This document shows, one piece after another, positions 20,801 through 59,025 of a stretch of 64,000 nt of DNA. The DNA comes from Halichondria panicea (Eukaryota; Porifera; Demospongiae; Suberitida; Halichondriidae): the NCBI RefSeq assembly GCF_963675165.1, contig NC_087389.1, positions 3,718,830-3,782,829 on the forward strand, written 5' to 3'. The translations under genes were made by a program, and so were the position numbers. Numbering within the stretch: position 1 is the stretch's first letter; the number at the start of each line of letters is the position of its first letter. The notes under the pieces were generated by a model that was not told the DNA's origin, ran no database searches, and worked only from the letters and a program-made list of their open reading frames with translations.

Positions 20801-23800
20801 GATGGCGAGAAATGAGACTATATATGGTGTATCCTATATACATGCAATGAACATTGATTCAATAGTTCTGTATACTAAGTAGAGTTAGACGATGTCAGTT
20901 AGTAGTCCTATACCACGCAGTTTTTGTATGACCAACGTTATTTAGTATCAAACCAGCTACTAGCTATACTAACAAAATTGATATATATCGTACAGCGGAT
21001 AATTTTTCGTATGTTCATACTCCAAAATATTTGTACAGCTCAGAATGGTGACGTAGAATCTACAGCGCTTAATTTTCAAAGTAATACTCACGAAAAATAG
21101 GACCATACGAAAATAACACGCATATACAGTAATTACTTTATGCAACAGACTCACTGTGAAGATTAAGGTCCCAATGTGTGACAATAATGGAAAGAGGACA
21201 GCTTTCCAATCCTGGTCAGACTTACTCAGAATGTTCACCAGAGGAATCATCAAAAAACGTACCACCAGCCAGTTAAAAAATTGTAACACATGTAGAGTTC
21301 ATCAAAGTGACACAAATACGGATGGAATACTTCCATTTAGGACGCGAAATTAAAAAATAATTGTCAACGCAGCTGTCGCTACTTTTAGAGGTCAGAACAT
21401 TACCTAAACTTTAGGGTGTCGCATATTTGGAGGGTCACCTTAATTAGAGGTCTTACAGCGACGTACTACAATCCATGATGTGTGTATGCCACTCACCATG
21501 GTAGCAGTAAAAACGTATGTGTTATATAAGAACTAAGTAGTATTACTTTCTAAGGGGTTGCCTATACACAATGTATGTTGCCCACTAGAGAAAAACAGCT
21601 GCTATTAAATTAAGAACGAGAGGATATGAATGAGGACTCTTAGTCTGAGCAGGTTGAGGTGCTCAATGTTGCCAGTCATAGTGTGCAGAGTGAGTTGGAC
21701 CAGACCAATATCCGATAAGTGCTTAAACCCATACACACCAAAGCAACGAGAGAGGCTGGACACACTACAGTTTGGGATTACAACACGCATAAAAGCTGAT
21801 AATTTGCATATGAGTTGGTTCTAGTATAATTGCAGTGCATATACATGTACAATATCTACATCCACATGAAATATTTAAGTGCAGTTAATAATATAGACGG
21901 GAGACATCCCAGTAAGAGCAGGGCTAAACCCTCGCAATATCTCACCATCCTTCATGAGCTGATGCCAAATTCATCCTCACATTCCCCAGCTCTCCATAGT
22001 CCTCCGTCTCTGGGCGACGAAGCATTGTCCGACCTACACCGGATTACCCAAATAAGCCATCAAATTATCTACATCACCTAGCCCTATAGTGTATACTTAC
22101 CTAGAATTGTGTCTTTTTCAAATTGGTGTAGTTCTGGTAGTGTTTTAAAGTAGGCAGAGAATAGATTGAGAGAGTCACTGGCCCACAGCTGGTACAGGGA
22201 CCTGCAGAGTGTGTGAACATGGAGCGCTGTTTGGTGCTTACAGACTATCATAAGTATAGTTTTTAGAGAGTAAAGTACGCTAGACTGCTAAAATGAGGAT
22301 CAAGGAGAAAAGCTAGTCCAATCAGTGATGCACGTTGTGAACAGACTAACAAATTAATGCCGGTTAAAGAGGTTGGATAAGCGAGAGTCTTAATTGTGCA
22401 ATTTATGATAGAAATTCCAAGCTTCGGTACATATAATTATAGCTTAGATAGCTAATTAAAACTCACCCAAGGAGAGGAAGAATGAATTTGGCTACAAAGG
22501 GCATCACATGAGAGTAAGAGGGATGGTCTGCAGCTGGGCCGGGAGTTGACCTCTTCAACACCAGCGTCACAATGTGCACTACAAAGCAGAGCTTGTAACG
22601 ATGGAGGATTTCATAGGAGGGGTCACTTGGCTCCTTGTTCAGGCATAGGTACGAGACGAGGGATTGAGGGGAAGAAGCAGCACTGGCAGTGTATACATGG
22701 GAGGAGGGGCAGTGTTTGAATAGTATATGCATGAGTGTGTGGGGGTGGGGATATATATCACCAGAGATGACTAGTGGCATGATTATGTGAGAGGAAAAGG
22801 ATGGCAGTGGTGTGTGTGTGTGTGTTTGGAATATCATACATGGTATGAGGGAGAAACGTACCTCTCCATTTCTGAGAGCAGCTGTTTTGGTTCCTGCAAT
22901 AGTTGACCGAGAAACATGGACTGCTCTTGGGGATTGTGGACACTTTGGCTACAGGGACAAGACTAAGTAAGATATCTCAAGGGCGTATCGACTGCCAAAG
23001 CCGGGAGGTCGATATACGCCCTCGATAAGATCTCATCTATGGCAATAAGTATAATAGCTCTAATGCACATACCTCAGTATATAGAAAGACTCGAGGAAGT
23101 TGCATTTTTCAGCGTACACAAGCACATCGTTCTTGAGTAGAGTCTGATAATGATCAGCAAACAGTCGCTCCACATGAGGCTACATTAGCACACACAAAAC
23201 ACACAGTCTCAATTAAACGAGCTAAATCCGAACGCACAAACTACATTTGAGACACTATTATTTACATTTTAATGGCATATTAAGACATAATTAAATTATA
23301 GATGGTTGCTAGCAATCTTGTAGGGCTCATGCCAAAACTCCAGTAAATCTGTCGTATTTTGTTATGGGGGTGTTTAATTCAAGGGTATCACTATGTGGTG
23401 AATAAAAAAACTCACTGTTCTTATAGCAGCCCTTGTTATATCTTTTAAGAGTTTGTACCCTAAGACTGTTCAATTTACCGACCTCTAGTTTACCATAAGC
23501 TACAATATGGAATACTACAAGTGATAAACACTCTTCAAATGTAACTCACTGCCAGAAGAGATGGTTGGGCTTCACAAAGTCGGACGAAGCACGAGGTGAT
23601 AATGTTGCGTGTGTTCACAATGTACCGAGAGAGGTGGTACTGTGAGAGAAGCATACGTGTATATATATCACCATGAACAGCTGCATTATTTAGTAGTAGC
23701 ACAATGACATATCAATGCATGTACACTGATACTTTAGCATTGAGAAGAACTTACTTTATCCGTACACTTGCCCAAAAATCCAACGCATGAGAATATCTGC

Positions 23801-24842
23801 AACAATACATGACATGCAGACATCAAAACACTCTTAGCTATAATATAGTACTGTACACAAGATTGAAAGAGAAGCTCTATAATGCCAATTGCCATTATTA
23901 TACTACAAACATTCTACACTTTTATCCACTTGTATATTCCCAAGAGCAGGTAAGAGTACTCTTATCTACTCCTGACATTACTTACTGTACACTTGTACCA
24001 AAGGCGTATAAAAGAAGAGAGGGCATGTAAATGCACATTAATTCGCCCACGTGGTGAATTCTGCTCGCTACGTGTACTAAATATGCATGCCCTCTCTTCT
24101 TTTATACGCCTTTGCTTGTACCATGCAGGTACACATCTCTTGTGGGTTTGTCAGCTTGTACCACACTATCGCACCACTTATTAATAGCTATTCTGAGGGA
24201 GTTAGATGCTCCTCTATAATTATATGCTCCTGCTTAATTGTACAGTGGTTAACGAGTCACCCATGCACTAAACATATTCATATGCCACCAACCCATCCCC
24301 ATGCAGCATAATCTGGATATACCTTCTGCACAAACGTCTCGAATACAGCCTGATCCTTGTCAATGACTACCAACCCGGTCTGGAGACAACGGAATTGCAG
24401 GAAGAGCAACAAGGGATGGGAAGTTTCGTAGGAGAGAAGATGACGTAGCACAGCAAGGCTACTGTCAACCTGGGTGGATGAAATAACAGCTTCTGAGTGC
24501 AGTATAGTCAAGCCACAAGTAGTGTTGTATCAACATTATGGACAAAATACCTAATAATGAGATGCACAACTCGATCAAATGCACAACTCAATAGCCAATA
24601 CTCATTTTTTCATTGTAACTATGACGTTCTCACAATCAGATCATTGTTTATTAATGTTAACAACGGCAAAATGTCTGTCAGTGAAAGCTCAATGAAGACA
24701 TGATACACTTCACATTAAGTACAACTCACCACTTCAGGAATGGTCAGGAGCTCAGCATTAGATCTCAGTGTTCCAGTCCAGCACTCGAGGAATGCGACTA
24801 GACCCTCCCACTCTATGTACAACATGGAACTCCGACTGCACT
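17899..24842 (-). CDS. XPO5: Exportin-5, 3' part (exons 13-32)
   Basis: C-terminal half of the RanGTP-dependent exporter of pre-microRNA and other double-stranded RNA; continues from 37436-44053. Exons in transcription order: 24842-24730, 24469-24323, 23796-23755, 23639-23550, 23179-23073, 22948-22862, 22682-22467, 22201-22101, 22033-21946, 21764-about 21620, about 21270-21155, 20025-19958, 19892-19813, 19541-19360, 19200-19096, 19032-18973, 18771-18694, 18537-18469, 18194-18105, 18033-17899. Recognisable against human XPO5 are YIEWEGLVAFLECWTG, SHPLLLFLQFRCLQTGLVV, SLYQLWASDSLNLFSAYF, MCELLFVSSFCGLTWSD and the C-terminal IDIPNLAALFGDEN. Phases agree at every junction except one: the exon at 21764 and the one ending 21155 both match XPO5, but no ordinary GT-AG pair joins them. 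The whole gene would encode roughly 1,170 residues (human 1,204). Confidence 0.92.
18288..18377. mobile_element. Short TAG...CTA inverted-repeat element in an XPO5 intron
   Basis: TAGCCTTGTTCTTCC at the left and GGAACAAGGCTA at the right enclose about 65 bp. Ends resemble the 9-bp-duplicating palindromes elsewhere, but no flanking duplication is visible. Confidence 0.6.
20438..20815 (+). CDS. Secreted peptide precursor with two internal repeats, nested antisense in XPO5
   Basis: Single exon of 125 residues lying within an XPO5 intron (about 21154-20026) on the opposite strand. MKLTIAFLLCALLCSTYAA is a strong signal peptide, with cleavage likely before PAFK. Two related units follow: NAQFAWLPISMALKGISHFI and, 45 residues later, EAQFWWTAARLLGKGLAHLI. 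Each has AQF[AW]W, a K-G pair and an amphipathic hydrophobic helix, followed by an acidic stretch (PDKD; SDGEES). Alternating acidic spacers and cationic-amphipathic segments resemble precursors of antimicrobial or signalling peptides. That reading is inference; no family is recognised. No cysteines occur in the mature part. A TATA-like stretch and GCTATTTAAGCAGCC lie about 50 bp upstream. Confidence 0.75.
   Translation: MKLTIAFLLCALLCSTYAAPAFKTKEANAQFAWLPISMALKGISHFIPDKDLSEQRMKEQSVNTEENAEAQFWWTAARLLGKGLAHLISDGEESQMSEKKVKALLERLVKEVNMNDVLMQRDGEK
20983..21130. mobile_element. Degenerate inverted-repeat element
   Basis: ATATCGTACAGCGGATAATT at the left and a loose complement near 21105-21129 resemble the TACCGTATAGCGGG family with many changes. 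Confidence 0.45.
22979..23022. repeat. Inverted repeat in an XPO5 intron
   Basis: AGGGCGTATCGAC and GTCGATATACGCCCT flank a 15-base loop. It lies between the exon starting at 22948 and the one ending at 23073. Confidence 0.7.
24001..24114. mobile_element. Palindromic MITE with 9-bp target duplication in an XPO5 intron
   Basis: Perfect arms of about 26 bases start AAGGCGTATAAAAGAAGAGA and mirror at 24087-24114. CTTGTACCA flanks it at 23992-24000 and 24115-24123. The 60-bp centre is noncoding. Confidence 0.8.
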
Positions 24843-25158
24843 CTGCATGCATGCGTATATATGCAATACTCACATCAATAAAATTGTGCGCATTTCAAGG
24901 TGACTAGGAAATTAATATGACTAAGTCTAGACTAGAGCTTATAAGCATTACCAGGCATTCTTGTAGCTAGGTTTTCTGGAAATCATAAGGTCAAAATCAG
25001 CAATCATTTCATCTACTACTGTACTAGAAACACATCCTTCTTGGAAATGTGAATATCATTTAGAGATGTTACACCCACACCACAAAAAAAGCCCATTGAC
25101 TTCAAAGAGAAGACAATATAATAGTCTCTAGAACAAGAGAACAAAGTATTACTGAAAG

Positions 25159-27064
25159 ATGGGAGTCAAAAAGCTAAGCACCTTTATTGAAAGTCACTAC
25201 AAGTGGGAACAAATTAATTTGTTTGGTAGAAAGCTAGTCATTGACGGTTTCGCACTCTGTTTCTCTCTCTATTTTGCCTTCTACTCCAGTACGTGGTTCT
25301 TTGGAGGAGACTACCACGAGTACTATTTCACTGTATGCAGGTTTTTTGATGACCTGAGGCGTAACAACATTGATGTTTATGTTGTCATGGATGGCATTGA
25401 TATTAATCAGACAAAAGTGGCTACAATTCGACAAAGAATCATTGCGAGAAATAGAATTATCGTCAAGTTAGAGCCAAAAAGAGAGAGTGTGGCACCATTG
25501 TTTCTAATTCACGTATTCTTGGATGCATTACGAGAAATGAGGCTCGAGTTCTACGTGGCCGACGGTGAAGCTGACAGGGATATAACGTCCCTAGCTAATC
25601 ATTTCAAGTGCCCTGTATTAAGTAAGGATTCTGACTTTTACGTCTTCAACTTGGAAGGTGGATTCATCCCATTAACGAAAGATAGTCGCAACAATTTGAC
25701 GAAAGGGATACCGGTAAATATTTTCAAATACCGAAAATTCAACAAGCAGTTTTCTCTTAAGGACGCTGATCTTACACTCTTTTTTCCTTTCTTTCTTGGG
25801 AATGATTTTCATAGGTCACCAATACCAATGGAGCGGCTTGGTTTCAACACAAAACCTGAGGTCAGTGATGTTATAACTTATATTCGACAATTTCGTTCCC
25901 TTGACAAAGTTTTAGCTGACCTACTAGAAAATCGTTTTTATTGCCTTGAAAAACGGTTTAAAATGGGTGTACAACACTACTATCGTAGGATTCAAGTTGC
26001 TTCATTTGAAGACCTCAAGAAACCAGGTAAACAGCTGAGAGAGCTGAATCACCCAATCCCGCGCTGGGTATTAATTGCCTACAAAAAAGGGGAATTTCAT
26101 TTTTCTCTAATGAGTTTTCTCGCATTGGAACCGAAACGTGGTCGAAGATATGACACAAGAGAGTGCTTGGGAATTCACACGAGACATCAGGGAAGTGATA
26201 ATGGCCATCTTAACTCCAAATGATGGTACCCAGACAGTGAACGATCGAGATGCTGGTATAGAGAAAGGTTTTGTTAGAGCAACGGTGATGACCCACTCTG
26301 ATGTCAAAGCACTGGCTATTGAAAGTTCAAACACAGTTAAAGAGGAAAGCGACTCGGAATCATATTCCGAGAATGAACTGGAGGATAGTTCAATCTCAGA
26401 GGATGACGACATGGCAGAGGATTCTGATATTGAGGCTAATAATGATGATGTAGTGGCAAATTTGGACACTGAAACAGATAAAAATTGTGGAACTCGCATA
26501 GCGGAAGTTGTACGAGCTCCTGGTAAATATACGATTGACCGGCAAGATATCTATTTCAAGCGAGGACCAATTCATAACATGATTGACTACACTCTCGTAT
26601 GGAAAAAACCCGACAGGAGAAGAACAGCTCTACTAATGATTGTGGATTGCTACGAGATCAAGGATCAACTCGAGTTTGTGCCTGAAGAGCTCCACTTAGT
26701 TGTGATAGCTACTCATTATTGGATCAAGAAAAAGCAAGAGTACATCATGTATCTAGAGCCTTTGATTTACTGTGTCTTTAAGTGCAAAGGTCATTTAGGA
26801 AGAAATAAATTGAATTCTAGAGCTACTCGGAATCTTCGACCATTGGCTCACATTTTTGCTCACTGGCAATGCTCTCTTCATCACATGATAGCACTGAATC
26901 AAGTGCTCAACCAGCCTTATCAGTACACAAGTCCTGCACGCCTTTTCTCTGGTAGTATTCTTCACTACTACCTAAATCAGCTTCAAAGCCAACGAACAAT
27001 TGCACTGTCTCGAGAAGCTCAACGATTGTATGACATCTGTGTCCGTGTAATCAGAATGATATAG
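25159..27064 (+). pseudogene. Asteroid/ASTE1-like nuclease A1, one frameshift
   Basis: Single-exon member of the Asteroid family (XPG/FEN1-like fold). The first frame, 25159-26223, starts MGVKKLSTFIESHYKWEQ and keeps every acidic motif: KLVIDGFALCF, VYVVMDGID, ADGEADRDITSLANH, LSKDSDFYVFN and FLGNDFH. The reading frame then breaks near 26140: the upstream frame reads LALEPKR, and the family motif VVEDMTQESAWEFTRD resumes in the next frame (open from 26138 to 27064). Paralogues carry about five extra residues at this point, so a small deletion is the likely cause. The second part has an acidic insert (EESDSESYSENELEDSS) not found in the others and ends with HWQCSLHHMIALNQVLNQ and YTSPARLFSGS. 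It may be a recent pseudogene, or two separate polypeptides; a sequencing error is also possible. A decayed copy is at 47419. Confidence 0.8.
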
Positions 27065-28002
27065 ATCCACCCTTAACCAGTCACAAAACTTAACTTCAAT
27101 TGTTCATGTATAATTTTAGAAATTTCTTCTACGTTTCCATTGAGCTATAACCGTACATTCAAATTACAAATTTACAGATGTACCGTACGTATATGTTCTA
27201 ATTTATCGGACAGCCAAATATGGAAATTGTCCGGGTATAATTGGAACAGATTTTGAGCATGCAAAGTGTCCGGAATAATTAGCAGCTGCATTAGAGCTAG
27301 CTAAGTTAATAGAACAGTGTGCACTGAATAGTTGCAATATCTAAAACTAGCTACTCAAAGCTATCTAACTGCACTCTTGCCGTCTATGAATGTAACTAAG
27401 GTATTGTCTGGATATTTAGAACAAATGTAATATTAAAGCACTGGAGTATCCGTTGTATTAGAACAACAAAAATTGCTCAAAAGAGAGAAGTATCATAAAT
27501 TACGGTATATAGAATGCCAATACCAGTCATGCAATGCTATACTTAACTTCTTTCAATGCTGCTTTATTGTTATGAAGTGCCAAAATTTGGACCATGAGCT
27601 ATATAATCCGTGGTAAGGCAATAAAAAATACTTACTTTGACGATACCATTTGAAAGGTAGGAAATGAAAAACATTTACTTTTGAAATACCCTCGAGGCAG
27701 GGCAGAGTGAAATTTAGTGAGAGACACAAATAGCCTGATTATATGCAACTTAAGTGTTAAGAAAACTTGCTTCATGAAATGCGTTTGCTTAGGAAAAATC
27801 ACATTTTAATACTTTCTGTGTATCAAATGTGCCACAACAGTAAAATACAGTAAAATATATGAATTCATTATAGCTGATGATAGCTAATACATACACATGC
27901 AAGCAGTCATACATGAAGTCATGTACACATTTTTATTAATCATGCACAACAGTCTCTTCTTGCTAGGTAGTCTTGGGAGCAGCAGAGGCTCAACAAACAG
28001 GT
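27065..28002. other. Spacer between A1 and A2
   Basis: AT-rich, no gene recognised. A sequence with two CGGACA/TGTCCGG strings at about 27208-27275 may be a worn inverted-repeat element. Homologous, shortened sequence occurs at 47553-48800 in the second copy. Confidence 0.5.
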
Positions 28003-29667
28003 TCAACTTGTGGGGAGAAGTTTTTTCGTTATCGCTTCGTACATACAAGCACCTTCAAAGTCCAACCTTGTATGAACGCCTGGACCGCTGACAAAAAAGC
28101 TTTGAAATAGTGTTCCTGAGAACATTCGGCCCAGACTAGTGTAGGTAAATGGATAGTTCAGGATTTCATTGAATGAATTTGTGAGGTGGAGCATGCATTC
28201 CCACTGTGCTAAATAGTGGACCCGGCGAAGGCGAGCCATTGGGTGTTCTCGGTGATGTCCCGCTTCATCAATTGGTCGAGCTCCACTACACGTTTGAAAG
28301 CAGAGCACTAGTGCTGAAATAAAAGCCTCAAAATTATAATCAACATTCTGAACATCAACGAATCTCAGCCAACATCTGCTCGCGATTACCGCTAACTTCA
28401 GCTCTTTCGGAACATTATTCAATGACTTTGAAACGGATTTGCAGTGAAATGTGCGCAAAAAGATTTTCTCTCTCTCTTGTACGGACATATCATCATGGAC
28501 AGTGTGCAGGTCATGTGATCCGAGTATATTTAAATGCTTTGGCGAGAGCGAGAGGTTGATTTCATCCACAAGTGCACAAAAGCAGTCCTGCCGAATTTTC
28601 ACAACAATGCTGGGGATCCTGTCCCTTTGATAGCAACTAAACAGAGCACCGATAACATACGGAAGGACGGAATCGGTCACTTTCCAAGCAGACTCTAGCT
28701 TTAAATCTTCAACCACTAATAAATACTTCCAGATTTTTTTCCCCTCCAGAAGATCACTGGCCAGAAAATACATTGCTGTGCGTGAAAATTCTCCTCTCTT
28801 GAAACGAGATACAATCCATTGAGGGACTGATACACTAAATGCTGAGTGTTGAGACAGGTCTTCAAATGAACGAGGGACAACTCCATAGAACTTGAGATCA
28901 CTAGCAAGTTTTTCTTGATAATCATCAATTTTCAAAGAGGATGTACTAAGCTTTTCAACTATTAGCTCTGCTTTAGCTTCTCGATTAATTCCTAGCTCAG
29001 GTAAAGCATGGCGACCATGAAAGTCATTTCCAAGACAGAATGGCAGGAACAAGCGGATTTGAGGGTGGCTAAAGTTGCACGTTTGATCGAATTTCCGACA
29101 GTCAAAGTACCTCACCTCTCTTTTAAGGTCTTCTAAATTGTCGGGCATGAGGATCAATCCGTGATCTATGTTAAAAATGAAAAAATCTGAGTCATAACCT
29201 AAGACGGGACAGCCAACATGATTTGCAAGTGACACCACATCTCGATCAGCTTCACCATCAGCAACAAAGAATTTAACTCCTGCTTCGCAAACAGAATCAG
29301 CAAATACTTTTTTTGCCAGAGGAGGAACAAATATCTCGTTATTTGTAAGCATTTCAATCCGAGATTCAACTCTTCTCAACTCCTCAAGATTGCGCTTAAG
29401 TCGCTTCATATTAGTTTTTGCCTTTTCATTGTTATAGTCAATGCCATCGACTACAACATATGCTTCAATTCCGATAGATTTTAGCATTCCAAAAAAATCG
29501 AAAACCTTCTTATAAAACTCAAAGTAATCTCGGCATTTAATTCCACGGAACAGTTTATAGCACAAGCAAAATCCATCGATAACGATCTTACTGGACATTT
29601 CCTTCAATATTACAGACTCAATATGCCCGTTTTCCTTCATGTAGGTAGTTAAGGTTGGAATTCCCAT
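28003..29667 (-). CDS. Asteroid/ASTE1-like nuclease A2
   Basis: Intact single exon of 554 residues. The start is the second of two adjacent ATGs, giving MGIPTLTTYMKENGHIESV; in this fold the N-terminal Met-Gly is conserved and the Gly sits near the active site. Metal ligands present: IVIDGFCLCYKLF, AYVVVDGIDYNNE, ADGEADRDVVSLANHVGCPV, YDSDFFIFNI, CLGNDFHGRHAL. The C-terminal half has the Asteroid signatures LLVVEDLKLESAWKVTDSV, LAVIASRCWLRF, LAQWECMLHLTNSFNEIL and FTYTSLGRMFSGTLF, which also appear in human ASTE1. Human ASTE1 has been reported to trim single-stranded ends in end-joining repair; whether this paralogue does so is unknown. The 230 bp at 29030-29259 is identical to a segment of A5. 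Confidence 0.9.
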   Translation of the reverse strand: MGIPTLTTYMKENGHIESVILKEMSSKIVIDGFCLCYKLFRGIKCRDYFEFYKKVFDFFGMLKSIGIEAYVVVDGIDYNNEKAKTNMKRLKRNLEELRRVESRIEMLTNNEIFVPPLAKKVFADSVCEAGVKFFVADGEADRDVVSLANHVGCPVLGYDSDFFIFNIDHGLILMPDNLEDLKREVRYFDCRKFDQTCNFSHPQIRLFLPFCLGNDFHGRHALPELGINREAKAELIVEKLSTSSLKIDDYQEKLASDLKFYGVVPRSFEDLSQHSAFSVSVPQWIVSRFKRGEFSRTAMYFLASDLLEGKKIWKYLLVVEDLKLESAWKVTDSVLPYVIGALFSCYQRDRIPSIVVKIRQDCFCALVDEINLSLSPKHLNILGSHDLHTVHDDMSVQEREKIFLRTFHCKSVSKSLNNVPKELKLAVIASRCWLRFVDVQNVDYNFEAFISALVLCFQTCSGARPIDEAGHHREHPMARLRRVHYLAQWECMLHLTNSFNEILNYPFTYTSLGRMFSGTLFQSFFVSGPGVHTRLDFEGACMYEAITKKLLPTS

Positions 29668-31000
29668 CATCAACAACTTCTTCTTGAGTAAGCACTTCAA
29701 CTTAAGAGTTCCTGATAATAATTATTGGCCGTTGTACACCACTTTCTACTCAAGTTTCGGTATGCTAGTAATAACTGCAATTGCCAAGAGATACAGACTA
29801 TAATGATTATAGCTAGCTATAACAACAAGAATGAAATTTTGGAAACTTCCATATAAGTACATAGTGCCTAATAGTCCCTAATTGTCCGCTACACAACAAT
29901 TAATCATGGCTTTTGCATAGTTTGCAGTCCAAACAATGTTTAATACAATTATAATATATTCATAAGTGCATGTCATGTCATGCACGCTACATCTCAAAGC
30001 ATTCATCAAGAACAACTACTTTGACAACAGCGCTGAGTTAAGTGCTCTATATCAGCCTATATAGGGGCCAGGATGTATAATTATACATTGCACATACATA
30101 TATTGTCTGGTTGCCTGAATCCTTATAAGAAATCAAAGCAGCTTCAGAAATCTTATTACATGTATGGTACTAGCTGCCAGTGTGGCTCACGTCGGCACTG
30201 TGGTTGACATGCATGCAGTTACATATATAACTGTGGTCAAGCTCATGCATGCACGGTTTACGTATACCAATTACCATTATATCACTACAATTTCCATGCT
30301 TTTACCATCACACAAGCACTACTTTAATTACCAGACAACACTACAAGTGCAAAAAGTGAAAAAATGGGGAAGAGTAGGGTTGGAAGAGCATGATGCGGGC
30401 ACTGAAGTAACAAAAAGATCGAAAACAAGATTGTCTGGTATATAGTCTTTGCATGCTCAACTAGTTAGGGGTGGGGCACAATCTTTGCGACCTTTACCAA
30501 TTGACTATACTTCTCATTATATATACGTCTTTCTTTATGCGAGGCGCTCGATCTGCCCCCTATTTGATTTGACCATCAATTTGTGTGTGTTAATTTTATC
30601 AGTCGATTGTTTTTAAGGTATACACACCACTCAGTAGACAATCAAAAGAAGATTCCATGAATAATACCTTCATGGAATGCATTTCTAACATGTTTACCCT
30701 CTTTCTATGTAACTATGACTATTCTAAGTGCTATGAATTTACTCGTAACAACAAACGACACCAACAATCAACATTACTAAATTGTAAGTGCTATCTAATT
30801 GGCTTGGTCGGAGATCAGTGCACATCACTACAACAACTCTGCAAATCTTAATCACATGATATCACAACCATAAATGATCTATACACTCAGTGACAATGAA
30901 ATAGTCTAAGGGTCTAAGGGTCTATGTGAAATAAGTGCACAATGTATTGCAAAATAAACTAACAGTCTAGATGTATGGAAGCACCTTTGCCGCATGTATG
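29668..31000. other. Spacer between A2 and A3
   Basis: No gene recognised. The sequence is AT-rich with scattered GCATGC strings. Largely absent from the second copy of the duplication. Confidence 0.5.
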
Positions 31001-32584
31001 TCACTGTTTAGTTATTACACTAATCATAACGGAGGGTAGTTCTTGCAAAGGCTGAGGTGGTGGATTAACGCAAAAGTGTTCTACTACATCGCAAGAAAAC
31101 AATCGTGCTGGGCTTATGTATCGAAATGCATTCCCTAGCAGTTGATTGAGTGCGATCCCATGATGAAGCACACATTGCCATTGAGCAAATGAATGAAGCC
31201 GTTCCATGTCAACGTGGTCACTTGGTTTAATATCTTCAGGCATAGGGTACTTACCAGAGCAGGCAAGAATACAGAATACAAGAGGAAGTAGAAATGACGC
31301 AAATGCCTGGTCATTACTTTTCAACCACACGCGGCAAGTGATGACAGCCAATTTCAAATCAATCGGAATCTTATCGAGGGAAACCTGAATATGTTTACAA
31401 TCAAAACATTTCACAAGAATTCTCTGCCGTTCGGTAATATCAATCGAAAGAATATCTTTTAGTGGTACGGGCAATACCTGATTGTGCTTTTCTTTCAACT
31501 GAACTCTTGAGAGAGTCAGGTTGCAAGGAACACCAGTGCGCTCAGTATCTTTAATGTGGTCTTTATAGCGCAACAGCTGTGAGAGAACACCGATAATGTA
31601 CCTTCTGGGTTTAAAGGTCACACTCCAGGCACTTCTCTGTCTTGTATCTTCTATAACATTAGAGTATCTCCAAGTGCTTTCACGGACTAGCAATTGCATC
31701 ATAGACTGATTAAACATCCCAAGTTTGTATTCACTCAATATCCAACATGGAATTTTGGAATTGAGACGATCCAAGGTTGTAGTCCGTGCCCAGAAAGATC
31801 TTGGGACAACTCGGTAATAAGGATGTGTCTTATCATTGATCAATCGGTACCTTGCTAGGTCTAGTGGCTCATCTTTTATGTTATCCAAAAGGTCTTCAAT
31901 GTCATCGCATACACCTTTTCGCCTAGTCATAAGAGACTTACGGGACTCAAGAACAAGTGCAAGTTGTAGCCGATGTGCAGAAGAACATCCCATTTGCGAA
32001 TCAAACGCCTTGTAGTTGTAGCACTTCACTGTACCCTCAAAGTCAATGAGGGAGCCTTCGGAATCATACAGCGGTATATAACCCTCATCGATATTGAACA
32101 CGAAGAAGTCAGTGTCTTCCCCCAATATAGGGCAATGGTTATGGTTAGCAACCGCCACACAATCTGGATCACCATCACCGTCAGCAATGAAAAAGCTTAT
32201 ACGACAATCTCTCATAGCATCCACAAAGACGGTTTTTGCAAAAAGAGGCAACACACTCTTGCGTACAGAATTCATATGGCTAGTACGGATATCTGTAACA
32301 TATTGCAACCTTTGACTACATCTTTCCTTGTACACAACCGCGCTAGTATCAGCACCATTCATAACAACATATGCACGAGTTTTTTGTGCTTCCAACATCC
32401 GAAAAAACTCAACTAAATAGCTATAAAACTCGTAATAGTTCCCTCCATTCTGCCATCGATAGTTATTGAAATACAAATGATAGCAGAGAGAGTCACCTTT
32501 AATCACAACTGTACTTTGTCTCAAATTCACAGACCTCCATTGATATTTCTCCTTTATAAAATAGCCCAGTTTTGACAAACTCAT
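31001..32584 (-). CDS. Asteroid/ASTE1-like protein A3, probable pseudo-nuclease
   Basis: Intact single exon of 527 residues starting MSLSKLGYFIKEKYQWRSV; the frame upstream has no other ATG. The fold is clearly Asteroid: FFRMLEAQKTRAYVVM, LPLFAKTVFVDAMRDCRISF, SFAQWQCVLHHGIALNQLL and FRYISPARLFS. The active site is altered. The usual VIDG reads VIKG (Lys29), the usual VVDG reads VMNG (Asn76), EADRD reads DGDPD, and the GND motif after strand 7 is replaced by LVLESRKS. Met-Gly at the N-terminus is Met-Ser. Only the ADGD and EDTDFFVFN parts are retained. An open frame of this length with several selective losses suggests a non-catalytic role rather than simple decay. There is no counterpart in copy 2 except perhaps the fragment at 50157. 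Confidence 0.88.
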   Translation of the reverse strand: MSLSKLGYFIKEKYQWRSVNLRQSTVVIKGDSLCYHLYFNNYRWQNGGNYYEFYSYLVEFFRMLEAQKTRAYVVMNGADTSAVVYKERCSQRLQYVTDIRTSHMNSVRKSVLPLFAKTVFVDAMRDCRISFFIADGDGDPDCVAVANHNHCPILGEDTDFFVFNIDEGYIPLYDSEGSLIDFEGTVKCYNYKAFDSQMGCSSAHRLQLALVLESRKSLMTRRKGVCDDIEDLLDNIKDEPLDLARYRLINDKTHPYYRVVPRSFWARTTTLDRLNSKIPCWILSEYKLGMFNQSMMQLLVRESTWRYSNVIEDTRQRSAWSVTFKPRRYIIGVLSQLLRYKDHIKDTERTGVPCNLTLSRVQLKEKHNQVLPVPLKDILSIDITERQRILVKCFDCKHIQVSLDKIPIDLKLAVITCRVWLKSNDQAFASFLLPLVFCILACSGKYPMPEDIKPSDHVDMERLHSFAQWQCVLHHGIALNQLLGNAFRYISPARLFSCDVVEHFCVNPPPQPLQELPSVMISVITKQ

Positions 32585-33122
32585 GTTGGCTTTTTGTTGG
32601 CAACTGTATTTTTGAACACACAGTATTAAATTGCAAAGGGAATAGTCATATGAAAGCTGCTTCCGCAATGAAATTATTCATAAGCATGCTTGTTAATTCC
32701 CACGCCAATTTTCTCTCTAAAATAACGCTAGGTCGCTATTCATAAGCATGCTCGTTAATTCCCACGCCGATTTGTCTCTAAAACGAGGCTAAAATGTCTA
32801 GACAATATACCATTGAGGAACCAGTTGGAGATTAGAGCTACATGGACTTCCGCGTTATATAGGTACCCCATTGCTACACATCCTAAACAATGGAATTGAC
32901 ATTTTAAACTCCAAGATATACCGCATACAGTTATAGTATGCTTTATTATAATTATTATAAGACCATAAACATACAAATAAAATAAAATTCATTAGTATCA
33001 GGTGACTGACTATGTTAGACCACATGACAAAAATCCACCCCCTTTCGACATTTGTAAGTTATCAGTATCAAAAGGCCGGTTTTAACAAGTATCACATCTA
33101 GAACTATGCAGTTCCTCGCAAA
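32585..33122. promoter_or_regulatory. Divergent upstream region of A3 and A4
   Basis: A3 and A4 are transcribed away from each other across 538 bp, which must hold both promoters. It includes a 62-bp tandem duplication (32676 onward). In copy 2 most of this interval is lost, yet the A6 ORF remains intact, so the essential A4/A6 promoter is probably close to the ATG. Confidence 0.5.
32676..32788. repeat. 62-bp tandem duplication
   Basis: ATTCATAAGCATGCTTGTTA at 32676 recurs at 32738 with one change, and each is followed by ATTCCCACGCC[AG]ATTT and a TCTCTAAAA string. Confidence 0.85.
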
Positions 33123-34907
33123 ATGGGAGTACCCAAGTTGAAGAAGTTTGTGTCCAGTAGCAAAGGATGGGACACAATACAAGTGTCAGGCAAAGTAGTC
33201 ATCGATGGCAACTCACTCTGCTATAATCTGAACAAACAGCATGAGTGGAAGTTTGGAGGTGATTACAAAGACTTCTATGAAACGGTTACAGTGTACATTC
33301 GAGAGCTCAAGGCATTAGGAATAGAGCCGTACATTGTGGTGGATGGTATGGATCACGATGACAGCAAGTATCAGACGTACATAGCGAGAAACGAGGATAG
33401 AATCAACCGAATCGCTATCAGTCAATCCAGGGGCACTACACCACATAACGTCGTTCGTCCGTTGTTCACACAGACTGTGTTTGTTGATGCAGTGAGAGAT
33501 TCAAAGACAAAATTCTTTGTAGCAGACGGAGAGGCAGATCGAGATATCGCATTACTCGCCAATAGTTTATCTTGTCCTGTTATCAGCGAAGATTCAGACT
33601 TCTTCATTTTCAACATTGAAGCTGGCTACATACCATTGAATGGTGATGACCAACAAACACGGATCGATTTACAAAAGCCAGTCAAGCGATATCAGTATAA
33701 GGAATTCGATGAAAGCTTCAGCCTAAACCAAGAACAGAGGCTGTTTTTTCCTTTTATTCTAGGCAATGATTTCCACAATGGTGCCAAACAGTCCTCACTG
33801 CAATTAACCTCACGCACACCTCTTCACGCAATCGCAAGAAAGTTATCAACGCTCGATTTCAGCGACGCAACTTTGACACAATTCGTTTGTCCGAACCCCA
33901 TAAGCCAGATGGAAAAGATCAAATTGTACTACAGAGGGACAGCTCAATCATTTGATGACCTTACATCTACCAGTTCACTTCTGGAGTTGTATCCACACAC
34001 CCCGGAGTGGATCATGCAAGAGTACAAGAATGGTAGGTTCATGGCTCCAATAATGAGTCTTGCAACTTGCCCTACTACAAAGCGGTGGCGACACACAATA
34101 GTAGTCGAAGATTTCAGTCAACAAAGTGCGTGGAAGATTACGGAAATCGCGAAGAAGTTTATCATTGGGGCTTTACTCGGTGACGAAGCAAATAAGCATC
34201 ACATAATGGCAACTGCAGTTAAAACCTCTGACAAACCATCATCACATCACAGACATCGTATCCAATCGTATCCATCAGTGACTAGAGTAGACTCAAAACT
34301 TTTATTGATGGACACCGAGGTCATCTTAGCTCCAAAGCATACCACAATTCTATCTGTGCCACTAAAAGATGTTCCGCAAGTGCCAGTCACTGCTCGCAAG
34401 GAGATAATGTATCGTGTGTTTCACTATACCGAGCCTGCTGAGTCGGACATTCCTGAGGGGCTACAGTTAGCCATGATTGCAGGGCGCTGCTGGGTACGTA
34501 AAGTAGCTTGCGACAATACACACCTGATTCAGTCACTCGTATGCTGTATTCTAACCTGCTATGGCCATTTTCAAATGATTGATCGAAAATACGGATGTAA
34601 GTTAGCTCAACATGAGATTCTGTTTTTTCTACACTCCTATGCTCAGTGGCAGTGTCTACTACATCACGTTATCGCATTTAACCAAGTTCTAAGCCACCCC
34701 TTTCCATACACAAGCCCTGCTAGGCTATTCTCTTCAAGTTTACTTCTACACTTCTACCAGCAGACCTCACAGGTCCTACAAGAAAAGATGGACACATTGG
34801 CAACGAGTATGCTACAAATAATTACAGAGAGCAAGTATTCTACTGAAAGTTTGAAAGATATTGAACTAGAGCCTTCGCAGACAAAGAAACGTCGCACTAC
34901 ATACTGA
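33123..34907 (+). CDS. Asteroid/ASTE1-like nuclease A4
   Basis: Intact single exon, 594 residues, starting MGVPKLKKFVSSSKGWDTIQ. Predicted metal ligands: Asp28 (VVIDGNSLCYNL), Asp74 (YIVVDGMDHDD), Glu137 and Asp139 (ADGEADRDIALL), Asp157 and Asp159 (SEDSDFFIFNI) and Asp216 (ILGNDFH). This is the full set of an XPG/FEN1-type site. The central region has VVEDFSQQSAWKITE; a His/Ser-rich loop (about residues 362-385) is variable within the family. The C-terminal signatures are MIAGRCWVRK, YAQWQCLLHHVIAFNQVLSH and FPYTSPARLFSSSL. The tail ends in basic KKRRTTY, which could serve nuclear import. It is an opposite-strand gene within the XPO5 intron and is nearly identical to A6. Confidence 0.92.
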   Translation: MGVPKLKKFVSSSKGWDTIQVSGKVVIDGNSLCYNLNKQHEWKFGGDYKDFYETVTVYIRELKALGIEPYIVVDGMDHDDSKYQTYIARNEDRINRIAISQSRGTTPHNVVRPLFTQTVFVDAVRDSKTKFFVADGEADRDIALLANSLSCPVISEDSDFFIFNIEAGYIPLNGDDQQTRIDLQKPVKRYQYKEFDESFSLNQEQRLFFPFILGNDFHNGAKQSSLQLTSRTPLHAIARKLSTLDFSDATLTQFVCPNPISQMEKIKLYYRGTAQSFDDLTSTSSLLELYPHTPEWIMQEYKNGRFMAPIMSLATCPTTKRWRHTIVVEDFSQQSAWKITEIAKKFIIGALLGDEANKHHIMATAVKTSDKPSSHHRHRIQSYPSVTRVDSKLLLMDTEVILAPKHTTILSVPLKDVPQVPVTARKEIMYRVFHYTEPAESDIPEGLQLAMIAGRCWVRKVACDNTHLIQSLVCCILTCYGHFQMIDRKYGCKLAQHEILFFLHSYAQWQCLLHHVIAFNQVLSHPFPYTSPARLFSSSLLLHFYQQTSQVLQEKMDTLATSMLQIITESKYSTESLKDIELEPSQTKKRRTTY

Positions 34908-35439
34908 ACTATAAGTATATACCGTAAGGTGACAGGTATAATAATAATATTAAATGCGACTTTAGAGTTTTATACTGACCATTTTTCAAATTATCCGTGA
35001 ATTCAAATTTTACAGTTTCCTCTCATTTGCTAACATCACATGCAGTAAATGTTAATAAAATTTAATACAATTATAGAGTGCACATAATATGCAATAGTGT
35101 ACATCAAAATTTTAATTGAAATACATTGAAGATCATAAATGCACTAAAAACATAGTGATTCAGTATCGTTATGCATACAAGCAACGAAGTCATGCCACAG
35201 TGAAAGCAAAATTAAGATCGATACAATCCATGCACAATGAAATGCAAAAAATCGGTCACGATTAAAGTATTTATGTGGTAATATTTCTCTTCACCACCAG
35301 CTCCAAGCCTAGAGTCAAAATGCAAGCTTCCACAATTACGTGTTAATATACAGCATTTTATTAGACATCTGTTCATCTCCTTTGGGAAAATGTGTTCCGA
35401 CTCAATGCATGGTCATATATATGAACAGAGCCATATATT

Positions 35440-36320
35440 ATGCCAACAGAAGGAACAGTTGTTGATCACAACACCACGAAAGAAAATTTACGGAACTAAC
35501 TGTTCATCTCAACAACACCGACTGAGGAAGAAATATCTACTAATCGAAAAATCAATCTCACAGCTCAAAGAAAGAATCGAAGTATTGCAGGATCTCTCAA
35601 AGCCTTCGCTGAATATCTACCGTAGACAATCAACAAAAGAATCGAAGTATTGCAGGATCTCTCGAAGCTTTCGCTGAATATCTACTGTAGACAATCAACA
35701 AATCTCGATTGTGCATGGCATGCATAGAGATTTTATCAATATGAATAATTATACTATTCATGCACTCCTGATTATAGCAACTGTTTTTAAATGTACCTGC
35801 AGGTTGTAACAGAAGAACCCGTTGTTGATCACAACACCACGAAAGAAGCTTTCAGAGCTGACACGTATCGAGCTATCTGTTCATCTCAACAACACGAAAG
35901 AATAACACATCAATCAACAAATATCGACTGGGGCACAAAGTTCAGAGTTCATAATTATAATCATATATTACTATCAACGTAAATCGTCTCTCCAATTGCA
36001 CTGTCTGTGCATGCAAAGTCATCATATCCCTGTAAAGCCAGTTGTTGATCACATGCAACAATACAATACGTTCACCGGCATAGAGTTCCTTATATCAAAT
36101 ACATAATAGATGCTCTGCACCCAAATCAACATAGCCTTAGCTTGTGATTTTAGCCCTTACGTTTGCTTGCATGAACAGAGACACGTGCATGAATACCAGC
36201 CATCACGAAAAACCAGCTGTTGATTACAACACCACGAAAGAAGATTTCACAGCTGACATGGAGCTATCAGCTCATCTCAACAACACGAAAGAAAAATTTC
36301 ACCGTTGACAATCAAATAAC
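35440..36320. repeat. Diverged three-unit array of about 0.37-0.4 kb periods, downstream of A4
   Basis: The string ACAACACCACGAAAGAA recurs near 35469, 35830 and 36226, each preceded by TTGTTGATCAC or TGTTGATTAC. A second string, TCATCTCAACAACAC, follows each about 30-45 bp later (35503, 35881, 36273). A third, ATCAACAAAT(A/C)TCGA(C/T)TG or a variant, follows that. Only short conserved cores survive between units. A 64-bp tandem duplication (GAATCGAAGTATTGCAGGAT) at 35575-35702 interrupts the first unit. I cannot assign a function. Confidence 0.7.
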
Positions 36321-36784
36321 TCGACTGTATAGCATAGAGTTCACTTATACTTTGACAGATTGCAGATTGCAGACGGACGGATCTTCACGAAATCTCTTGA
36401 TAGAACTAAATATGGTTCGACAAAATCATCAAACAGCACTCCTAAAGAAAGTTCTTCACAATAGCTAGTGTAATTAAACTATTATAGCTACATAGACACA
36501 GTGGCATGGTGGCTAATCCACTTACTTATGCTAGCAGCTACACATATACATGTCCAACAGCATGGTCACTTTATGTTGAGATGAAACCAAGCGAAGGATC
36601 ACATGAGCTAGTGTGTGGGATTTAATATCATAGAGATCTCCACGATAATTGCACCAGTTGACAAAAGGAACCCACAGCATGTCCGGCTTGAGCAACGTGC
36701 CATGCGCATGCATGCACAGTGCAAGGTACTCTCAATACTCATGGTAAGAGAATAAAGTTACCATTATATATATCATCGTTTTGG

Positions 36785-36841
36785 AGACTCTATAATTATA
36801 TACAGACTCTATAATTATATACAGACTCTATAATTATATAC
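36785..36841. repeat. 19-bp minisatellite, three units
   Basis: AGACTCTATAATTATATAC occurs three times head to tail. The second copy of the duplication has a single degraded unit and an 850-bp insertion at this place. Confidence 0.9.
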
Positions 36842-37435
36842 AAGGTATAGCTGTACATAGTGTGAGTACACTATGTAAGAGTCAAAATAAATAACTTGGG
36901 TGCATTATAATTATGCTTCAACACTGCATGCACAAGTCGAATGTTTTATGCCGACTGCACTGCATGCAATAACATTACGGGTTATATATATATTTTTTAT
37001 GACGTTATAAATATAAGCTTGTATGAAGTTAGATATAATCATGCAATTCACTATCTCAATTCCTCAAAGATGACTTGCATGCTTGTACGTGACTACAATC
37101 AACCAAAGTATGTCTGGAGACAGCTTATCAGAGGTCCTGTGTCAACTATAATATTATTACTCGATCTGCGGCATAGTCCATGAGTCACATGAAGCACAAC
37201 AATTCCAACCACATCAATTTCAACACAATTCACATACTGTACATCTTAATGCCTATATATATATAATAAGCAACTAAAAACTTGGATTAAAATCACTTAG
37301 TGGGACAATCGCTTCAAGTGCATTGGTTCACATACCAACGTTATAGCAGCACAAGCAAGGAGTAGAGAATAAGTAGTCACTACGTCCCAACTAAATTCGG
37401 ACATACAGTGCTACGTAAAGCAAATGCATATTCAC

Positions 37436-40400
37436 CTTGCCCAGGTTCAAGTTTCTTCTGGACCATCTGCTCAGTGACGGTGAGAGCTTCTACAGCAGCT
37501 GTTCTTGGAATCAGAAGAGACACTTGACTAAGTATCTTTACCATCTTACCACGAAATGCTAGAAAGTAAGTTGTTGCACTTATATGTAATGTACATTTGC
37601 AAGTTAGTGCTGCACATACAATACAGTAAGCTTCATGTACAATACAATTACCACAGTTAGGGTTTAGATAAACAGTATGCTTACTCGCAAAGAAGAGCAT
37701 AAAGTCATCCGCCCCATCAAAGTCCAGACGGGAATACTCTGAACTGACATGGTCGTACACATCAGGGTCACCCACCTACAATACATGCAGGGCAAGCACA
37801 AGAGTTATATCAGTATATATGTGAGCACTTCTATAACTTTGTGATAATCCAGTGGCATATATTGCACCAAAATGATTAGTAGGAATGGGAAAAAGGGGCT
37901 GGTGCAGTATTAAAAACTTGGGGTGTCCACATTTGGTGCCGTTACCAAATTGTATGAAATCTTTGGAAAAGCCCCCAAAATAAGTGCACTACCTCTTTCA
38001 TTGTTTCAATGACACACGTTTTAATGACAGTAGGGGTAGGGCTGACTTTGAAAGTATCTTAGCAACATGCACAATGGGATAAAACCTCTGCCAACCAAGC
38101 CCATGGCCAGCAGCACTGGCTTCCGCACATGCACAGGTGCTGATGAGGTCAACAAGATATCATACCACTGATCACTATGGTATGCAAGTAAAGGACACAA
38201 CACAGATAATATGGCGGAAACTTGGTGAGGGATACACATTATTGAGAAAATTAAGCTTTTTAAATAAAAAAATATGGCTATCAACAGTTTGCAAAATGTT
38301 CATTGTATGAATCAATGCTTGATTTTCTCGAATGTTTCTCCCTCACAAAGCTTCCCGTGCTGACCTTGAGCAGTTTCTGTCGGGCTATTGTGAGGAGGTG
38401 TGTGAGGTGGTCCTTGAACACTGGGTGGTCCTTCAGGTGATTGTGGGAGAGGAACGTGATCCACACATCAGCTGACGTCAGACTCAGCAGCTGCATGTGT
38501 GGGGATGGTTAACTTGGGCCAAAACTATATACAGCATTCTTGCTTTTAGACTAGAGTTGCAGTATGCCACTATGTTAGCGGATGCAAAATATTATACAGT
38601 GGAACCCCTTTTAAAAGGCCACCCATGAAAAAGGCCAACTGTAATACAGGCACCAGTTGTGTATACAAAACAACCCTCAACAAAGGCTACTTCCGCTCAC
38701 AACAGCAAAAAGTGTACTACAAAAGCCAATGTACACCTTAGATTCAGTGTATGAAAGTAACTAGGCATAAATATATAATGCTACATGCACAATGACAGCG
38801 CTAGCTACCTGGCTGTCGTGCTTAGTGAACTCAGCCACAACCTGGAGGTACAGTTCCAGAGCCTCCGGAGGCTTGAATGTCAGAGAGTATGTCTGCAGGG
38901 ACAAGAAACAAGGGCCTGATAACAGACACACAACCATCATTGATACCACACAGATAACATTCCAGCGTATAAAGACTGACTTTGCATCTTTTGGTGGGAT
39001 CCTGCACCACACTGAAAAAACATAACAGTAATCAGATGTCCACCTGTCCACATAATGTACATATATGGCTACAAAGGTTGATAAGGGAATATTGTAGGGT
39101 TAGGTTTGCTATTGATAAGAAAGCTGTTTTTGAGCAAGCCCAATATTAACAGTGCCCCAGTCTCACAGGAGCTGTTTGAGCTAGTGCAGCCTCACATTAC
39201 TGACAGAGTAATTAATACTAAGAGTTTAAGCCTGACTATGTGGTACAATAGTGACTTTGGCTGGAGTGGTGGTCTGTGCACTGCACATGAGGGCAGATCC
39301 CTGCACTCACCCAGAGCAGTGCCAGCTGAGAGGTGCCCAAGTGGACCAGGACTTGACACACCCTCTTCAGGAACACGTACTGCTCCTCCACCACACCTTG
39401 CGAGTTGGCCAGTCTGCAAACACAGATATGTACTAAATAATAGTTTACATGCCTTCACTATACAAAAGAGTACATTGACCTTCAAGGTCACACATGTACT
39501 TTGTCATACGACAAGACAAGCTTCGAATTCGTTAACACTAAGCTGCAATGCTAAGATAAGATTACTATTATACACATATGAATGTTTGAGGGAATGAAAG
39601 TGGCAGCAATACGCATTCTATACATAATTGTACCAGCCCAAAAAAAGTAAAAGATTACCACAATGATGTAATGTCCTTCAAACCTTACACCTTACATTGA
39701 AGCAGCCATGATTCCATTGAGAGCTTCAGTGGAGAGAAGCAATGAGAGAATCGTGGTCCTGTCTCCCTCTGTCTTGCGAACATCACCCTGAAATCAAGTT
39801 AACACTACTTAACTACCATTGTGTAGTCAAAGAACATGTGCTTGATCGACAGCAAAATAATACGTACTTTTCTGGAGAGGATAGGCAGTAGACACTCACA
39901 GGCGACAGTCTTAAGTTCCTCCATCCCTATGAGGTTGTAGAGGAGCTTAATGAGCTTGGCGTCCTCCATCAGGAGGGTGGGAAACTCCACCCACTCCACA
40001 AAGCTGACTATCGTGCTCAGGGCAGTTTGACGAAGGGGCTCCGACAGAGGAGACTGGGGGATAATAGGTAAATAGTAAGGTAAAAGAGAATGGACGAGTG
40101 CATCAGTCACGCTGCGATTTTTTTTGGCTTAGTTGAAAATAGGTAAAGATCACTTCGCATAAAAGCTAAATTCAGTACTAGATAATACCTCTAAGTTGCT
40201 AATGAGAAAAGTGAAGACTGTCTGAGACTGCTGGTTGAGGGCAGCTGCCATCTCCCTCTTACGCCCTGAGGTCATGCCAGACTCGTACCCGTGGATGTCC
40301 TCAGCCAGACGACGAAATATTAGCAACACCAGCTCCACCTGGGTGGACTGGGAGGGGAGAGGTGTGACAGCATGCAAGGACTGTACTTGAAGTGGTGGCA

Positions 40401-46502: not shown

Positions 46503-46635
46503 CAGAGTATCCAAATTTGAATAAATTTGTGTCAAGCTTCAGTTGAGGGGATTAGTAAAATGTGTACTTAATTTTCCACTCTCTCTTCCATAGGCAACTT
46601 ACTGTCACCTTGTTGACTGAGTATACAAGGAATAA

Positions 46636-47049: not shown

Positions 47050-47145
47050 CACTTGAGGAGCTCAGCATTAGTGTTCCAGTTCAACACTCGAGGAATGCGA
47101 CCAGACCCTCCCACTCTATGTACAACATGGAACTCCGACTGCACT
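47050..47145 (-). pseudogene. XPO5 exon 13 copy with premature stop
   Basis: The acceptor and YIEWEGLVAFLEC codons are conserved, but the Trp codon after LEC is TGA (47083-47081) and the exon is 17 bp shorter than the 113 bp of its parent, so the frame also shifts. The sequence breaks off at the duplication edge before exon 14 can be completed. Confidence 0.9.

Positions 47146-58981: not shown

Positions 58982-59025
<44 letters not shown>

Follow-up and report, generated by a model that had tools for sequence, protein, structure and literature searches.

A review places ASTE1 in the shieldin pathway, where it is described as cutting protruding single strands of DNA (PMC8785701), and a 2025 paper puts Mkt1, ASTE1 and FAM120 in one structural class of Rad2/XPG proteins (PMC12345631). 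A comparable genomic arrangement is that of ELOA3 in primates, a tandem array of intronless paralogues whose copy number varies and which shows homogenisation and modest purifying selection (PMC10664989). Some sponge annotations contain many genes nested in introns: one study counts 2,432 for Aphrocallistes vastus and 3,358 for Amphimedon, numbers that vary with the annotation method and fall to 83 and 0 in two other sponges (PMC10282587).

The locus described here begins in a 64-kb stretch of Halichondria panicea DNA (64,000 nucleotides, hereafter the window), where intronless Asteroid-like genes lie in and around the gene for Exportin-5 (XPO5). Like ELOA3, it consists of homogenised, intronless paralogues of a conserved gene in tandem, but its units also carry the 5' half of XPO5, and the available part of PMC10664989 mentions no such half of an unrelated host gene. 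The gene-in-intron layout is common to other nested sponge genes; here, however, a single intron houses several genes of the same family, and the family has been amplified along with part of its host. With ASTE1 and Drosophila asteroid, the array proteins have in common an N-terminal PIN-like core, an MG start, seven acidic residues and the Asteroid C-terminal half, although identity to Branchiostoma ASTE1 is only 24-27%. Any likeness to the Mkt1 and FAM120 group would follow from the grouping of ASTE1 in PMC12345631.

Exportin-5 and the genes in its long intron

Exon readings joined by hand from both sides of the intron aligned in order with human exportin-5 (3a6p, E 8.8e-29) as one stretch, human residues 414-549, spanning the join, with a query that included 17 residues of intron read-through at that point; human residues 106-278 also align to the sponge gene. 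XPO5 proteins of Lingula and other species match the sponge exons one after another along the full length (weakly for several 3' exons), and this collinearity across the whole protein identifies the gene as Exportin-5. The original prediction of a splice-phase match was borne out, since both intron sides are in phase 1, one exon ending at 37436 (CAA G/GT) and the next starting at 24842 (AG/AG TGC; slashes mark the junctions). The intron measures 12,593 bp, compared with 75-1,875 bp for the other XPO5 gaps (n=18), whose sizes derive from 20 exon blocks (to 22099) with edges partly set by hand. XPO5 would still be produced by splicing over this intron. When proteins were searched for an annotated XPO5 of H. 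panicea, seven matches came back, none labelled with that species (four carried no name), and an Rfam scan of the window gave no match at the gathering score.

Table 1. Features of the Exportin-5/Asteroid locus in the window.
Feature	Position	Strand	Remarks
Exportin-5 (XPO5), single complete copy found	17899..44053	-	3a6p match, tblastn-placed exon peptides, XPO5 alignments
XPO5 exons 1-12	44053-37436	-	unit 1
XPO5 later exons	24842 to stop codon 17901-17899	-	unit 1
XPO5 intron with Asteroid genes	24843..37435	-	12,593 bp; GT 37435-37434, AG 24844-24843
A1, Asteroid-like, frameshifted	25159..27064 (25159-26223, then out-of-frame 26138-27064)	+	inside XPO5 intron
A2, uninterrupted Asteroid-like gene, 554 aa	28003..29667	-	inside XPO5 intron
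A3, uninterrupted Asteroid-like frame, degraded active site	31001..32584	-	inside XPO5 intron
A5 of unit 1, uninterrupted Asteroid-like nuclease (predicted), 594 aa	33123..34907	+	inside XPO5 intron
A6 of unit 1, uninterrupted Asteroid-like gene	44284..46038	-	upstream of XPO5, same strand
XPO5 exon 13 relic, unit 2	47069..47146	-	7-bp and 10-bp deletions
A2-like broken copy, unit 2	48819..50086	-	several frames and stops
A5 of unit 2, uninterrupted, 577 aa	50395..52128	+	
XPO5 5' half, second copy	55404..61609	-	86% DNA match in whole-genome search
A6 of unit 2	62669..64000	-	cut by window end; complete to 64423 beyond window

Four Asteroid genes had been proposed within this intron. Their nesting, their placement on both strands and their family all hold, but A1 is frameshifted and A3 has lost its active site. 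The A1 frameshift, near 26130-26150, has no homopolymer run at its site and is apparently a small deletion, with several codons absent relative to A5; the N-terminal frame retains all seven catalytic acids. At the same seven positions A3 reads K, N, D, D, D, D and a gap, so that three acids are lost and Asp replaces Glu at one more position. This leaves A2 and A5 as good nuclease candidates among the four. A2 is near-identical to protein P0021, whose longest contig is a different one of 23,456 bp. The predicted fifth gene just upstream of XPO5 is A6, which ends 230 bp before the XPO5 start codon, and the eight members or relics claimed for the window were all recovered: A1, A2, A3, A5, A6, the broken A2-like copy, the second A5 and the second A6.

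A 133-kb tandem array

The window covers the left-hand end of a tandem array on C13 that is 133 kb long; Asteroid genes there are interleaved with six XPO5 5' halves, and a single 3' half was found. The local expansion of the original prediction is indeed unusual, but it does not stop at the window, continuing to about 157.7 kb in window-style coordinates. A genome-wide Pfam Exportin-5 probe was uninformative, because it gave no match here or in 14 of 14 control genomes; DNA probes, which could overlook a diverged second XPO5, were used instead. The 5' probe detected six full-length copies across the whole genome, all inside the array, and the 3' probe detected one, giving one complete XPO5 and five extra front halves in this assembly; given near-identical blocks of 10-15 kb, the copy number of the array could be misassembled. 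A whole-genome search with A5, limited to best candidates and not handling introns, returned 37 matches, 35 in the array and 2 from one gene on C10. With only that gene outside the array among these candidates, we rejected a dispersed element. A stretch that resembles the unit at 72% over 749 columns lies outside the array at 184.7-185.5 kb.

Besides relics, the array contains 13 Asteroid frames without interruption, and 12 of these keep the full set of seven catalytic acids. Open copies comprise six of the seven A5 genes, three of the six A6 genes and both A7 genes, together with A2 and A3. Decay is also under way: the A5 of unit 3, the A6 of units 3, 4 and 6, and A1 are frame-broken, and A2-like relics recur in other units. 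Unit contents differ, with A1 and A3 only in unit 1 and A7 between units 2 and 3, and no exon-13 relic was found at unit 6. When the frame-broken A5 and A6 copies were left out, dN/dS was 0.07-0.35 for A5 (15 pairs) and 0.40-0.44 for A6 (3 pairs), a range of 0.07-0.44 that points to retained function of the Asteroid genes.

Identity between units is mosaic. By segment, units 1 and 2 are between 83 and 97.5% identical, and long blocks include 9.8 kb at 99.05% and 15 kb at 97.5%. The A6 genes of units 1 and 6 are 99.94% identical and those of units 3 and 4 are 100% identical, whereas the A5 of unit 1 shares 92.1-93.4% with the other six. Units 1 and 4 differ by a dS of 0.004 in XPO5 exons and 0.19 in A5. 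Blocks of 10-15 kb at 97-99% beside blocks at 90% point to unequal crossing-over or gene conversion.

Origin of the array and of the extra exportin halves

Taking together the layout of the locus, the number of copies in this assembly, the mosaic pattern of identity and the low dN/dS, all observed directly, we regard it as probable that a lineage-specific nuclease family was amplified by segmental duplication carrying a piece of XPO5. A sponge-specific Asteroid (ASTE1-like) branch would have settled, intronless, in the long XPO5 intron and around the XPO5 5' end. A unit of roughly 17-18 kb, containing the XPO5 5' half and Asteroid genes, would then have been multiplied by segmental duplication in tandem, one boundary lying in the exon-13/intron-13 region, and unequal crossing-over together with gene conversion would continually expand and homogenise the units. 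The Asteroid genes may be transcribed independently as nested single-exon genes, and most of their proteins may be metal-dependent, structure-specific nucleases, EXO1/FEN1-like with an ASTE1 C-terminal half; such enzymes could work on flapped or single-stranded nucleic acid, either during repair or as a defence against foreign DNA or RNA.

The same near-identical blocks (97-99% across 10-15 kb), and an A6 of unit 6 that departs from that of unit 1 by one substitution and one base lost from AAAA, could also be produced if alternative haplotypes of one locus had been placed in tandem during assembly. We find this distinctly unlikely, as two haplotypes cannot yield six XPO5 halves and seven A5 genes, and the units differ in their A1, A3 and A7 content and, between units 1 and 2, in sequence; unit 1 and its intron genes are in any case independent of the array count. 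That the Asteroid genes are transposon cargo or the product of a retrogene burst seems highly improbable, although every gene has a single exon and A2 and A6 cease to resemble each other within tens of bases outside the frame: at 77% coding identity, age would also be expected to erase the flanks of A2 and A6, and the copies share flanks at the scale of the unit rather than of an element. A viral origin was likewise set aside, since one IMG/VR scan with two peptide patterns from the alignment gave 33 pattern matches and no relative.

The five extra XPO5 front halves could themselves be functional genes whose product, an N-terminal piece of exportin, would regulate XPO5 or act as a decoy for it. 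Exon and non-exon divergence was counted on nine exon pieces totalling 1,164 bases, cut back to what all six units share, which also served for XPO5 dN/dS; exons 2, 3 and 10, part of exon 12 and some exon ends were tallied as non-exon, and two intron bases fall within the last codon of exon 12. On this count, exon pieces are less diverged than the remainder in 14 of 15 unit pairs, with 1.6-2.1% against 4.1-5.3% for unit 2 versus the others. In a binomial test of all 15 unit pairs, rounded against our own reading, amino-acid changes fall below neutral expectation in seven of the ten extra-half pairs (P 0.023 or less), the four strongest deficits (P 8e-6 to 0.003) all including unit 2, and the exon-12 donor is retained in all six halves. 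However, three of the ten pairs show no deficit (P 0.14-0.42), the pairs are mutually dependent, and the unit 3 half lacks the first part of exon 12. All five exon-13 relics are damaged (17 bp deleted in four; a 10-bp deletion and a 4-bp insertion in the fifth), so no proper 3' end is seen for the extra halves. Exchange with the working unit 1 accounts for clean exons with no need of function, which makes functional front halves quite improbable in our judgement; instead, the extra halves would be mostly passengers of the segmental duplications, and exchange with unit 1 would keep their coding sequence fairly clean.

The original prediction treated a link to RNA export as speculation, and nothing we found supports a connection with microRNA export. 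We also consider, as an unlikely extension, an innate repertoire of nucleases with fast turnover, in which a branch of Asteroid genes confined to sponges is kept in an array anchored on XPO5, whose repeated segments would provide homology for unequal exchange and whose truncated exportins may be translated. If true, the front-half repeats would tie one essential gene to nuclease copy number. Apparently, a core RNA-transport gene can carry several unrelated coding genes in a 12.6-kb intron and also withstand having its front half copied repeatedly in tandem. The overlap of nested genes, partial gene copies and pseudogenes also makes the locus a test case for annotation.

The nuclease family and its relation to ASTE1

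Domain matches, acidic residues and predicted structure agree with the earlier assignment to the Asteroid family, with an XPG/FEN1-type active site and nuclease fold. In the A5 of unit 1, XPG_I (5.1e-6) and XPG_I_2 (1.6e-5) scored over cut-off; both were also over cut-off in the A5 of unit 2, with XPG_N below it in both copies. XPG_I_2 was over cut-off in the first frame of A1 and only below it in A2, A3 and the A6 of unit 1, A2 also having XPG_N below cut-off; the window-cut A6 of unit 2 gave no XPG domain match. The metal-binding acids of A5 are D28, D74, E137, D139, D157, D159 and D216, seven positions whose role we take to be that of their FEN1/EXO1 counterparts. They are intact in 13 of the 14 frames checked (counting the broken A1), A3 being the exception. 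An A5 model (pLDDT 87) found human EXO1 as its top Foldseek match, with EXO1/FEN1 leading the list (best E 1.6e-7); among the best 50 rows, TMt to EXO1/FEN1/XPG was a modest 0.45-0.64 and no solved relative of the Asteroid C-terminal half appeared. A profile comparison likewise matched EXO1 (E 2.7e-11). From this one model, the A5 core is predicted to have a FEN1-like fold, placing it in the Rad2/XPG superfamily. Pfam XPG_I also matches one place each on C12, C9 and C15, outside the array; these are presumably FEN1/EXO1/XPG-type genes.

A protein search matched Branchiostoma ASTE1 (E 4.5e-33, 77% query coverage), with which the C-terminal AQWQC-like block aligns. In a midpoint-rooted tree (one of two, the first with 35 rows and the second with 27), array members and relatives form one clade (support 100/99), apart from Branchiostoma ASTE1 and from the sponge's own C10 gene; the latter, with P0025/P0029, falls on long branches between the array clade and bilaterian ASTE1 (95/93). 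The array could be co-orthologous with ASTE1. A profile search added no new members, its 25 matches all being among the 31 of the protein search. A literature search found no paper combining "asteroid homolog" and "sponge", and none of the papers listed in further searches describes the H. panicea XPO5-Asteroid locus in its title or abstract opening, which does not prove its absence from print. With its many open, apparently selected copies, the sponge branch offers material on poorly understood nucleases beyond DNA-break repair. Six relatives in ENA data list the same length for the longest contig, 658,764 bp, which suggests another cluster.

Exportin-5 and its nested genes

The structure of the locus is established in this assembly, whose genome comprises 131 Mb in 39 contigs. 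The exportin-5 gene (XPO5) contains a long intron of 12,593 bp, compared with 75-1,875 bp for the eighteen other gaps between its 20 exon blocks, and single-exon genes of the Asteroid (ASTE1-like) type lie inside it on both strands. Hand-joined exon readings, including 17 residues of intron read-through, matched human XPO5 (3a6p) with an E-value of 8.8e-29, and within this match human residues 414-549 form one aligned stretch that takes in, in order, exon readings flanking the long intron on each side. Exon-by-exon alignment with XPO5 proteins from Lingula and other organisms was also ordered, with several weak 3' exons.

Features of the locus (window coordinates; values above 64000 lie to the right of the window)
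Feature	Position	Strand	Remarks
XPO5 coding exons	44053 to 17902	-	
XPO5 long intron	donor 37435, acceptor 24843	-	phase 1 on both sides
A1		+	inside long intron
A2		-	inside long intron
A3		-	inside long intron
A5		+	inside long intron
A6		-	upstream of XPO5, same strand
A7, left copy	68734-70485	-	third Asteroid subtype
A7, right copy	152372-154120	+	third Asteroid subtype; inverted, at right array end
Cysteine-containing frame	151505-151951	-	149 residues, of another kind; adjoins right-hand A7
Antisense frame	20396-20815	+	139 residues, in another XPO5 intron stretch; hydrophobic, secreted-protein-like start; no family above its cut-off
Dispersed repeat	about 40460-40635		short, in XPO5 intron; 48 partial matches across many contigs; perhaps a MITE-like element
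RhoGEF-domain piece	1463-1951	+	E 2.5e-6
Retroelement-like frame	10036-10647	-	203 aa; by eye, resembles the C-terminal part of a non-LTR retroelement; without a match in Pfam
Ubiquitin carboxyl-terminal hydrolase	12924-14639	-	single frame; UCH, E 3.5e-41
Adenylate/guanylate cyclase catalytic domain	15637-16410	+	open frame, E 2e-15; convergent with XPO5 3' end

A tandem array of XPO5 front halves and Asteroid genes

The array was read from the window (C13:3718830-3782829) and fifteen further stretches (C13:3782001-3929200, same contig), whose overlaps showed zero mismatches. Asteroid copies are present as far as about 156.7 kb, and similarity between units persists up to 157.7 kb. To the right of this, the first long open frame of a clearly different kind begins at 158.7 kb, and a weaker match to the unit lies outside the array at 184.7-185.5 kb (72% over 749 columns). 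The separately probed XPO5 pieces of exons 1 and 4-12 are each present six times, and the exon pieces probed past exon 13 once each. The exon-12 donor is intact in all six copies, and of the 41 residues of exon 12 only the final 19 were found in unit 3, where the alignment to unit 4 is interrupted by an 87-bp break. Exon 13 is represented by one good copy and five relics, of which those at 47.1, 90.9, 109.1 and 143.5 kb have 7-bp and 10-bp deletions in common, and that at 65.5 kb has the same 10-bp deletion and a 4-bp insertion adjoining the acceptor. In whole-genome DNA searches, the XPO5 5' probe (40 of 492 candidates scored) gave six full-length matches (86-100%), all within the array, and 48 further short matches to a dispersed repeat that forms part of an intron; the 3' probe gave one full-length match and one of 82 bases.

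Thirteen Asteroid frames are uninterrupted: A2, A3, A5 in six of seven copies, A6 in three of six and both A7. A5 of unit 3 is broken by a 5-bp insertion, A6 of units 3 and 4 has a common 2-bp insertion, and A6 of unit 6 lacks one base of an AAAA run, a loss that could be a sequencing error. The frame of A1 changes near 26130-26150, where there is no homopolymer run and several codons are absent relative to A5.

Probable sequence exchange and constraint among units

Similarity between units is mosaic. A6 is identical between units 3 and 4 and differs by one base and a one-base gap between units 1 and 6, while A5 of unit 1 has 92.1-93.4% identity to the other six; for units 1 and 4, dS is 0.004 in XPO5 exons and 0.19 in A5. 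Longer stretches reach 99.05% (44152-53948 versus 87937-97757) and 97.5% (37921-52860 versus 134282-149215). A single duplication age does not easily fit these values, whereas repeated unequal crossing-over or conversion does; it is strongly suggested as the mechanism of amplification, by which the units would have exchanged sequence.

The counted XPO5 exon pieces are less diverged than the remainder in 14 of 15 unit pairs (1.6-2.1% versus 4.1-5.3% when unit 2 is compared with the five others), the one exception being the pair of units 3 and 4 (0.52% versus 0.41%, few changes). Amino-acid changes fall below neutral proportions in seven of ten pairs of extra halves (P 0.023 or less), the four strongest deficits all involving unit 2, and show no such deficit in the other three (P 0.14-0.42); because the test assumes independent sites, takes no account of transition bias and uses pairs that share units, it is indicative only. 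The deficit fits either selection on the extra XPO5 halves or exchange with the working copy, which the test cannot separate. For the Asteroid genes, dN/dS is 0.07-0.35 in A5 (15 pairs) and 0.40-0.44 in A6 (three pairs).

Some sponge annotations commonly include nested genes (PMC10282587), and primates have a known case of intronless paralogues that are arrayed in tandem and evolve in concert (PMC10664989). It is the combination that makes this locus unusual: a single nuclease family within XPO5, amplified jointly with the front half of XPO5.

Nuclease features and relatives

Seven acidic positions of the FEN1/EXO1-type active site are kept in 13 of the 14 array frames checked; in A3, three acids are lost and a fourth is changed from Glu to Asp. 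A5 scored above the cut-offs of both Pfam domains, XPG_I and XPG_I_2, and A2, A3 and A6 gave below-cut-off matches to XPG_I_2. An alignment profile found EXO1 (E 2.7e-11), and Foldseek with the predicted A5 model (pLDDT 87, pTM 0.88) placed EXO1 and FEN1 on top (best E 1.6e-7), with TM-scores by target of 0.45-0.64 among the 50 matches listed. We infer both expression and biochemical function for the Asteroid genes. Protruding single-stranded DNA is described as the cleavage substrate of ASTE1 (PMC8785701), and RNA-related roles are described as well in the class of ASTE1, Mkt1 and FAM120 (PMC12345631).

One protein cluster from the similarity search (P0002) bears the NCBI name "protein asteroid homolog 1-like [Halichondria panicea]". 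Searching the whole genome with A5 yielded at least 37 matches, 35 in the array and two representing one gene on another contig (C10; 607 aa, single frame), counts that are lower bounds because the search ignores introns and intron-split relatives could escape. One scan of IMG/VR found no relative. A tree of 27 rows unites the 20 rows of array-type proteins in one clade (100/99). Outside it, the C10 gene groups with clusters P0025 and P0029, a placement made unsure by long branches and the midpoint root, and Branchiostoma, Aplysia and P0031 lie further out. Six relatives from a single ENA source (P0006, P0008, P0010, P0011, P0013 and P0015), all with a longest contig of 658,764 bp, split into two subclades, a pattern that points to a cluster in a further species, which is probably a sponge.
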